This document shows positions 30,799 to 35,187 of a stretch of DNA of 64,000 nucleotides, piece after piece (the stretch's first letter is position 1; each line of letters begins with the position of its first letter). The notes beneath the pieces were generated by a model. The model had not been told where the DNA came from. It was given only the letters and a program-made list of their open reading frames with translations, and searched no databases. Source of the DNA: Pseudomonadota bacterium (GTDB lineage Bacteria; Pseudomonadota; Gammaproteobacteria; Steroidobacterales; Steroidobacteraceae); the NCBI GenBank assembly GCA_021798335.1, contig JAJZMI010000110.1:1-64000 (forward strand). The letters are read 5' to 3'. A program made the translations under genes and the position numbers.

Positions 30799-32910
30799 AT
30801 GAATCGATTCACGCATCGATATGACCGGCTTTGGTGCCGGATACCGTTACTCGCCATGATTTTACTCGGCGGCGCGCTGCTTGCCGCCCCCGGCCGGGCG
30901 CTCGCCTGCGGGAACAATAACGACGTTCATTGGCGCGAGATTTTCGCGGACCAGGGTCCGATGTACGACAGTAATCCGGAGCCCGCTGCGAATTCCTCCG
31001 TCACCCTGACCTTGAGAGTCTGCTACCACGACATCACCAGCGCCAACATCGTGTACTACGATGCCGCGACCGGCGCGACCACCTGGGTGCCGATGAGCTG
31101 GTCTTCCACCGATCCGACCGGTCAGTTCGATTATTGGCAGGGCACGATCGGCAATGTGGGCAGCACGGAGCTGCGCTACTGGTTTCAAATCAACGATGGC
31201 ACGGCCACGGCGTGGTACAACGCCGCCGGGGTCAGCTCGACGGAACCGGCGACCACCAATTCGGATAACTTTTTCATCATTCCGGGCTTCACGACCCCGG
31301 ACTGGATGAAAAACGGCGTCGGCTACGAGATCTTCGTCGACCGTTTCTACGACGGCAACCCGAGCAACGACATCCTGACCGACGAGTACTCGTATGGCGG
31401 CTGCGAGACGGAGCAGCACACCTGGACAAGCGGCTACACCAGCGTTGCGGCGAACGTCAGCGGCTGCAACAGCGAGGTCTTCTTCGGCGGCGACCTGGTC
31501 GGGATCCAGGACAAGCTGTCGTACATCAAGCAGACGCTCGGCGCCAATATCCTCTACCTGACGCCGATCTTCGCGTCGCCGACCAATCACAAATACGACA
31601 CCGCGAACTACTACGAGGTGGATCCGGCGTTCGGAACGGACACGGATCTCGAGAACCTGATCTCCGCCATCCACAGCAGCGGCAATGGCCCCGAGGGCTA
31701 CATCATCCTCGACGGTGTATTCAACCACACCGGAGACACGAACTGCTGGTTCGGCAAGTACACCTACTGGAACGAGACCTGCAACGTGGTCGGCGCCTAC
31801 CAGTCCCAGTCGAGCTCCTATTACGACTATTACACGTTCCCGAGCTGGCCGACGGAGTATTCTGACTTCCTCGGTGTTTGCGGCACCAGCAACTCCGGCA
31901 TCTGCAGCATGCCGAAGCTGAACTATGGATCGACGGGCTCGCCGGTGCGCGAGCAGATCTACGCCAGCCCGAGCTCGGTGATGCAGACCTACCTCAAGGC
32001 GCCTTATGGCATCGACGGCTGGCGGCTCGACTCCGCGCAGTACATCGATGCGAACGGCAACAACGGCAGCGACGCTACGAACCATCAGATCATGCAGCAG
32101 ATGCGCGCGGCGGTGACTGCCATCAACCCCAACGCGGAGATTCTCGGGGAATACTGGGGTGACGCGTCCGCATGGCTCGACGACGGAACGGAGTGGGACA
32201 GTGCCATGAACTACAATGGCTTCACCAATCCGGTCTCGGAATGGATCTGCGGGGTTGACGAAAGCGACAACAGCAACTCGATCGACACCGCGCAATTCGC
32301 CACTTGGATGTGGGATACGCGTGCGGATCTGCCGTGGAACGTACAGGAAGTCATGACCAATGAACTCGGCACTCAGGATACGCCACGCTTCGCCACACGC
32401 TGCTCCTGGACCAACGGCTGGGGAACGTACCTGGGTCTGTTCATGCAGTTCACCTACGTCGGCACCCCGATGATCTACTACGGTGATGAATACGGTATGA
32501 CCGGCGGCGCCGATCCCGAGAACCGCCATACGTTCGACTGGGCGGACGCCACCACCGCCAATGCGGGCGTGGCGCTGACGCAGAAGCTGATCGGCATACG
32601 GCGTCAATATGCGGCGATGCGTACCGGCTCGTTCATACCGCTGGTTCCCGATATCACCGGTGACCTGTACGGAACCAGCGGCGTATATGCCTTCGCGCGC
32701 GTCGACCAGAATCACCGCCTCGTGGTGGTGCTCAACAACTCGAGCAGCAGCCAGACGGTGGAAATCCCGGTCTGGCTGGCGGGCGACGCCGCCGGATCAA
32801 CGGTCACGGACCTGATCAGCGGTACCCAATATACCGTCGCCAACAGCGGCGGCAGGGGCTATGTGGACGTGACCGTGCAAGGACACTATGGGGCGATTCT
32901 GGAGCAGTAG
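30799..32910 (+). CDS. Secreted neopullulanase-like GH13 with N-terminal CBM34-like domain (copy 1)
   Basis: Sec signal; '[11 protein letters not shown]', region I '[10 protein letters not shown]', region V 'MPKLN', region II 'GWRLDSAQ', region III 'LGEYWGD', region IV-like '[11 protein letters not shown]'. Confidence 0.9.
31085..32906 (+). repeat. Direct repeat copy A (~1,822 bp), apparently identical to 33362-35183
   Basis: Constant 2,277-bp offset; sense and overlapping/antisense ORF translations identical throughout. Confidence 0.9.
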
Positions 32911-33048
32911 AATCGCAGGCGCCGCTCCCGACCGCGGTCGCGCTGGTCCCCCTCCGGGGCGGTGGCGGCCGGGAGCGGCGAGGCGCGGGAGGGCTGCGCC
33001 CGGGCGCACCGTCCAGGTAAGCAGTTTGGGTACGCGAGAGAGATCAAG

Positions 33049-35187
33049 GTGATCGAGCCCGACATTCGGGGGTGGCTGCTGCTGCGCGTGGCATCGGTAA
33101 CATCGGTCACCATGATGACGCTTCTGCTATCGGCCTGCGGCGGGGGCGCCTCCGGGGCGCCGACGGTCAGCGGTACGGTGAGCGGCTCGAGCGCGCCCGT
33201 GATCGACGCGGCGGCCCTGTTCTCCGACCAGGGTCCGATGTTTGACAGCAATCCTGAGCCCGCTGCGAATTCCTCCGTCACCCTGACCTTGCGCACCGGA
33301 CACAATAATGTCACGAGTGCCAACGTCGTGTATTACAATACATCGACCGACGCGGTGACCCGGGTGCCGATGAGCTGGTCTTCCACCGATCCGACCGGTC
33401 AGTTCGATTATTGGCAGGGCACGATCGGCAATGTGGGCAGCACGGAGCTGCGCTACTGGTTTCAAATCAACGATGGCACGGCCACGGCGTGGTACAACGC
33501 CGCCGGGGTCAGCTCGACGGAACCGGCGACCACCAATTCGGATAACTTTTTCATCATTCCGGGCTTCACGACCCCGGACTGGATGAAAAACGGCGTCGGC
33601 TACGAGATCTTCGTCGACCGTTTCTACGACGGCAACCCGAGCAACGACATCCTGACCGACGAGTACTCGTATGGCGGCTGCGAGACGGAGCAGCACACCT
33701 GGACAAGCGGCTACACCAGCGTTGCGGCGAACGTCAGCGGCTGCAACAGCGAGGTCTTCTTCGGCGGCGACCTGGTCGGGATCCAGGACAAGCTGTCGTA
33801 CATCAAGCAGACGCTCGGCGCCAATATCCTCTACCTGACGCCGATCTTCGCGTCGCCGACCAATCACAAATACGACACCGCGAACTACTACGAGGTGGAT
33901 CCGGCGTTCGGAACGGACACGGATCTCGAGAACCTGATCTCCGCCATCCACAGCAGCGGCAATGGCCCCGAGGGCTACATCATCCTCGACGGTGTATTCA
34001 ACCACACCGGAGACACGAACTGCTGGTTCGGCAAGTACACCTACTGGAACGAGACCTGCAACGTGGTCGGCGCCTACCAGTCCCAGTCGAGCTCCTATTA
34101 CGACTATTACACGTTCCCGAGCTGGCCGACGGAGTATTCTGACTTCCTCGGTGTTTGCGGCACCAGCAACTCCGGCATCTGCAGCATGCCGAAGCTGAAC
34201 TATGGATCGACGGGCTCGCCGGTGCGCGAGCAGATCTACGCCAGCCCGAGCTCGGTGATGCAGACCTACCTCAAGGCGCCTTATGGCATCGACGGCTGGC
34301 GGCTCGACTCCGCGCAGTACATCGATGCGAACGGCAACAACGGCAGCGACGCTACGAACCATCAGATCATGCAGCAGATGCGCGCGGCGGTGACTGCCAT
34401 CAACCCCAACGCGGAGATTCTCGGGGAATACTGGGGTGACGCGTCCGCATGGCTCGACGACGGAACGGAGTGGGACAGTGCCATGAACTACAATGGCTTC
34501 ACCAATCCGGTCTCGGAATGGATCTGCGGGGTTGACGAAAGCGACAACAGCAACTCGATCGACACCGCGCAATTCGCCACTTGGATGTGGGATACGCGTG
34601 CGGATCTGCCGTGGAACGTACAGGAAGTCATGACCAATGAACTCGGCACTCAGGATACGCCACGCTTCGCCACACGCTGCTCCTGGACCAACGGCTGGGG
34701 AACGTACCTGGGTCTGTTCATGCAGTTCACCTACGTCGGCACCCCGATGATCTACTACGGTGATGAATACGGTATGACCGGCGGCGCCGATCCCGAGAAC
34801 CGCCATACGTTCGACTGGGCGGACGCCACCACCGCCAATGCGGGCGTGGCGCTGACGCAGAAGCTGATCGGCATACGGCGTCAATATGCGGCGATGCGTA
34901 CCGGCTCGTTCATACCGCTGGTTCCCGATATCACCGGTGACCTGTACGGAACCAGCGGCGTATATGCCTTCGCGCGCGTCGACCAGAATCACCGCCTCGT
35001 GGTGGTGCTCAACAACTCGAGCAGCAGCCAGACGGTGGAAATCCCGGTCTGGCTGGCGGGCGACGCCGCCGGATCAACGGTCACGGACCTGATCAGCGGT
35101 ACCCAATATACCGTCGCCAACAGCGGCGGCAGGGGCTATGTGGACGTGACCGTGCAAGGACACTATGGGGCGATTCTGGAGCAATGA
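33049..35187 (+). CDS. Neopullulanase-like GH13 lipoprotein (copy 2), GTG start
   Basis: Lipobox '[10 protein letters not shown]'; same catalytic motifs as copy 1. Confidence 0.9.
33362..35183 (+). repeat. Direct repeat copy B (~1,822 bp)
   Basis: See copy A. Confidence 0.9.

Follow-up and report, generated by a model that had tools for sequence, protein, structure and literature searches.

Probable recurrent gene conversion of the catalytic body in two tandem GH13 paralogues with distinct signal regions

The GH13 genes and their locus

The window, that is, the whole stretch of 64,000 nucleotides analysed here, lies on a 69,665-base contig of a metagenome-assembled genome (MAG) of the Steroidobacteraceae, which comprises 2.49 Mb in 235 contigs and is 80% complete. 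The genus is represented mainly by metagenome assemblies. Three consecutive GH13 genes, here called A1, A2 and C (copies 1, 2 and 3), are located in the middle part of the window (Table 1). The products of all three have the Alpha-amylase_N and Alpha-amylase Pfam domains and a C-terminal domain; in copies 1 and 2, PF00128, PF02903 and PF10438 were above the cut-off, giving GH13 catalytic, N-terminal Ig-like and C-terminal domains. The best PDB match of A1, over residues 38-703, is neopullulanase 1/alpha-amylase I (1izj/1ji1) of Thermoactinomyces vulgaris. Among solved structures it is the nearest to the encoded enzyme, and the likeness covers the enzyme alone and has no bearing on conversion. 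By their domains, A1 and A2 are GH13 neopullulanase-like paralogues with predicted activity on starch or pullulan.

Table 1. Coordinates of the A1-A2 pair, its repeated parts and the adjoining gene C
Feature	Position in the window	Strand	Remarks
Gene A1 (copy 1)	30799..32910	+	703 aa; GH13 neopullulanase/alpha-amylase; front 30799-31084 diverged from copy 2
36-bp identical patch, candidate short conversion tract	30979..31014 (second copy 33256-33291)	+	match at offset 2,277
Block copy 1	31085..32906	+	1,822 bp; 3' part of Ig-like N-domain, whole catalytic and C-terminal domains; 100% identical to 33362-35183
Unique segment between blocks	32911..33361	+	451 bp; 5' flank and diverged front of A2; absent from the corresponding position in G011 and G071
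Gene A2 (copy 2)	33049..35187	+	712 aa; GTG start at 33049; lipobox LLLSAC
Block copy 2	33362..35183	+	1,822 bp; identical to block copy 1
Spacer A2 to C	35188..35301	+	colinear with the spacer after the single A gene in G011 and G071
Gene C (copy 3)	35302..37374	+	690 aa; GH13 paralogue; about 69% identity to the block; outside the homogenised pair

The 5' parts of A1 and A2 (hereafter fronts) differ in their export signals, which were read by eye from the translations. A putative cleavable signal peptide is present in A1, together with a Cys pair (ACGNNN ... LRVCYHD) that recurs in most A1 orthologues. The A2 front has the lipobox LLLSAC followed by GGG, and its orthologue in the related genome G010 has LLPAC followed by GGG. 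Because GTG 33049 is aligned with the ATG start of the A2-type gene of G010, it is probably the start codon of A2, and the 741-aa ORF from 32962 is probably over-long. These motifs suggest that A1 is exported in soluble form and that A2 is a lipoprotein, apparently anchored to the membrane. When the A2 front was compared with the remainder of its MAG, the matches were confined to the homologous A1 front and one trivial hit, and a search of a plasmid collection with copy 1 gave no match.

Nearby genes code for a further GH13 enzyme, a GH31 enzyme, two proteins resembling tryptophan halogenases, a protein with a TonB-receptor plug domain, an MFS transporter and a protein distantly similar to glycoside hydrolases. 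By inference from these neighbours, the locus would be an alpha-glucan utilisation locus; a search of one collection of papers found none on a locus combining halogenase, TonB and maltose functions. The two halogenase-like genes (24728-26236 and 26246-28282, both PF04820) are adjacent and convergent, and contain inverted repeats (25244-25830 and 26658-27244) of 73-80% identity, an older duplication without homogenisation.

An identical body behind diverged fronts

Self-comparison of the window showed that the two blocks agree at 1,822 of 1,822 positions. The 1.82-kb direct repeat at a constant 2,277-bp offset described in the initial annotation is thus present as one uninterrupted match, and the evenly spread substitutions named there as a sign against conversion were not found, the alignment containing zero differences. 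The identity ends inside the last sense codon (GAG CAG TAG in A1 against GAG CAA TGA in A2). The translations of overlapping and antisense ORFs are indeed identical as well, but this is a mere consequence of DNA identity and adds no weight. Upstream of the block the genes are colinear, and 111 of the 142 positions in 30943-31084 (about 78%) are identical to copy 2. The borders of the tract are therefore sharp, lying at 31085 on the 5' side, with about 78% identity upstream, and at the stop codon on the 3' side. The block starts at about codon 96 of A1, inside the Ig-like domain (residues 65-161), so its 5' border does not coincide with a domain border. The short identical patch reported in the diverged front was recovered; shuffling gave P of about 0.0009 for it, and one SNP at 33288 breaks it in strain L047. 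A second short run of identity at the same offset, 16 bases long, is located at 30949-30964.

A GENECONV-like test, which had been proposed as a check, was carried out on an alignment of six A-type genes with 10,000 shuffles. Copies 1 and 2 are identical in 640 consecutive polymorphic columns out of 717 columns, far beyond the longest shuffled run of 206. Copy 3 reaches no more than about 69-75% identity with the block, and no other repeat of this kind was found within the 64-kb window. Among the other tandem pairs examined in the genus there was no comparable run: the longest exact matches were 77 bp or shorter, and several of these are overlapping ORF ends.

The rates of the two parts of the genes are very different. 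Between A1 and A2, dS is 0.54 and dN 0.21 in the front, against 0.002 and 0 in the body, that is, the shared block; dS of the body to the orthologue in genome G071 is 0.67. High identity of the bodies beside diverged fronts is a robust feature of the locus. Purifying selection on the protein was considered as the cause of the identity and is ruled out, since the block is without silent differences.

The trees of the two parts are also in conflict. In the body tree, A1 and A2 of the window form a pair, as do A1 and A2 of genome G068 (SH-aLRT 91 and 90). In the front tree, which rests on 150 nt (50 codons), A2 is placed outside a clade of 16 A1 genes (96/96), near the gene of G010. The initial annotation had regarded the front of copy 2 as copy-3-like, and this part of its proposal was not borne out: in the front tree, copy 2 groups with A-type genes (100/100) and lies away from copy 3 and the B and C types. 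The LRTG..NVTSA motif shared by copies 2 and 3 is superficial. On sequence comparison, the front of copy 2 represents a type of its own, A2, characterised by a lipobox; along the entire 5' region, its closest relative is the only A-type gene of G010. An AU test did not reject A1 and A2 as one front clade (p-AU 0.118). Because the front is short and the AU test retains this clade, the age of the A1/A2 split is uncertain; the A2 front could be younger and fast-evolving, as its dN would suggest.

The A-type gene of G010 has an A2-type front: some 353 bp, signal region and start included, are 72% identical at the DNA level. This front is joined to a body that clusters with local A1 bodies in the body tree. 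This arrangement may point to a second body replacement, in which case replacement may have occurred more than once.

The locus in a second strain and in related genomes

Comparison of the locus in relatives, also proposed as a check, revealed a second assembly of the same species. Strain L047 (JAJYFU010000021.1; the same stretch as in G068) is 99.84% identical to the window over 11,183 bp without gaps, and a further 11.6 kb is given as 100% identical. The gene order A1-A2-C is present in this strain too. Within it, one block matches the other exactly, yet both depart from the blocks of the window at four sites (32361, 32397, 32406 and 32678). Three of these SNPs are silent and one changes Ser to Asn, and all four are mirrored at +2277. 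Polarised with the sister species G011 as the outgroup, 32361 and 32397 are derived in the window strain, and 32406 and 32678 in L047; this polarisation is doubtful, as the G011 contig may itself be recombinant or chimeric. Both the 4/4 mirroring and the 2+2 polarisation are seen in two strains, and consensus assembly could mimic both. The A2 front differs between the two strains by 3 SNPs.

In the sister species G011 and G071, the only A gene runs straight into the spacer found after A2 in the window, and C comes next. Because their A gene adjoins that spacer, the part specific to the species of the window consists of the spacer and front of A2 (32911-33361) plus one extra body. The single gene of G011 ends like copy 2, with CAA TGA. 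On the G011 contig (L034), identity to the window is about 94% in the region corresponding to 18-31 kb and jumps to 99.6% at the start of the body (about 13060 of that contig), and identity above 99% persists from there to the contig end in copy 3. This jump may reflect natural recombination between sister species or a chimeric contig of low coverage (2.2).

The locus is variable in other relatives. In G010 (L096/L039) the A2-type gene sits after a halogenase gene, and about 5 kb further GH31 is followed directly by C with no A gene between them, showing a rearranged locus. Across the genus, the count of adjacent GH13 paralogues ranges from 1 to 4, and types A, A1b, B and C occur in varied order (L099 in G067, L035 in G029 and L097 in G071).

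Origin and meaning of the shared body

The explanation that we consider most probable, with moderate confidence, is recurrent gene conversion, by which two GH13 paralogues with distinct signal regions would keep a catalytic body that evolves in concert. The initial annotation had proposed a gene-conversion mosaic, and its core is supported: the dS contrast, the tree conflict, the mirrored SNPs and the sequence downstream of copy 2, which is colinear with what follows the only A gene of relatives, favour a homogenised body over a simple tandem duplication. That homogenisation took place is itself likely. RecA-type homologous recombination between the copies would repeatedly overwrite one body with the other. 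The tract would end on the 5' side at about 31085/33362, midway through the Ig-like domain, where the fronts would be too diverged to pair, and on the 3' side at the stop codon, where homology ends. Because the body tracks A1 orthologues, the direction of conversion was probably from A1 to A2. The fronts would then set the location of the enzyme and the common body would do the chemistry. A simple tandem duplication is disfavoured, as the spacers differ and identity ends at the stop codon.

How far the perfect identity and the mirrored SNPs reflect the cell depends on assembly. Bodies that are highly similar rather than identical could have been merged into one edge used twice, which would yield both. 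We regard this as a less probable account, though a tentative case can be made for it. A truly perfect 1.8-kb repeat is longer than usual short-read inserts, and the loop of front 1, body, spacer with front 2, body and spacer has a single possible order, so an assembler can traverse it with one stored body. Such a single stored sequence would also hide extra tandem copies of A2. The assemblies compared are mostly consensus sequences from short reads: the L047 contig bears a SPAdes-style NODE name and has about 12x coverage, most of the comparison MAGs have SPAdes NODE names and coverage of 2-32, and the window may be of similar origin. In metaSPAdes, bulges are collapsed aggressively and strain paths serve to resolve repeats (PMC8021871). 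A 16S sequence, sought in the MAG of the window to judge repeat resolution, was not found. Merging, however, needs near-identical copies, so homogenisation against fronts diverged by 22% would still be required; moreover, the order and junctions recur in the second assembly, and inter-strain divergence in the block (4/1822) is not clearly above that of the rest (10/7539). The recombination mechanism is an inference, and the identity may or may not be truly perfect in the cell, nor need conversion be going on today.

It is unlikely that one recent event, in which an A2-type front was joined to a fresh A1 body just before the strains split, with no later exchange, accounts for the locus. Such a joint could have arisen by duplication or by one body crossover integrating a spacer-front 2-body molecule. 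This anatomy is exactly what one crossover within the body produces, and since the A gene of G011 and G071 adjoins the spacer before C, the 2,277-bp unit looks inserted. Four block mutations that postdate the split are nevertheless present in both copies, which a single event cannot produce unless the mirroring is an assembly effect, and the fronts of A2 are already 3 SNPs apart between the strains.

The structure of G011 bears on whether the locus switches between one and two genes. Its single gene is the exact product expected from loop-out deletion by recombination between the blocks (front 1, body, the spacer of copy 2 and C), including CAA TGA. The ancestral state predicts the same structure, though, and G071 has it as well; the G011 contig, with its coverage of 2.2 and its jump in identity from about 94% to 99.6%, is possibly chimeric or recombinant. 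We think it improbable that the locus switches in this way, and base no conclusion about deletion on G011, whose arrangement could be ancestral or the result of recombination or of a chimeric contig. Unequal crossing-over in the GH13 array, in place of gene conversion, would suit the varying copy number among relatives (1-4 genes), but is very unlikely, because it would have duplicated the flanking spacer too, whereas the two spacers are unrelated and identity ends at the stop codon.

Recurrent conversion of the body has parallels in known systems. The tufA and tufB genes of Salmonella are two near-identical protein genes kept alike by conversion (PMC5485169), a protein-gene pair like A1 and A2. 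The tuf copies, however, are separated by 762 kb and similar from end to end, whereas A1 and A2 are in tandem and homogenised in the body alone, with diverged fronts. A survey of concertedly evolving gene pairs in prokaryotes covers 26 genes, among them the tandem mtrA and fla (PMC6053082). As here, paralogues within a genome are closer than orthologues at silent and replacement sites in those pairs, and domain shuffling is involved in mtrA too; unlike them, the present case is seen in only two strains and in one or two lineages, and its tract has a sharp border that lies within the gene. The process, concerted evolution of tandem paralogues, is thus known and is here limited to a module, the twist being the differing cell addresses suggested by the eye-read motifs.

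A more far-reaching idea, which we hold only as a speculation and think unlikely, is a maintained state of 'one engine, two addresses'. Selection would keep the secreted and lipid-anchored fronts apart, frequent conversion would keep the body identical, independently in at least two lineages (the species of the window and G010), and loop-out would lead to the single-gene state.

Short-read assembly may exaggerate the match. For perfect repeats in MAGs built from short reads, the reads themselves should be checked before conversion is said to be ongoing. If recurrent conversion is true, it acts on the catalytic module only, which would uncouple the evolution of enzyme location from that of enzyme chemistry, and the four mirrored SNPs would be natural markers for conversion versus mutation in wild strains.
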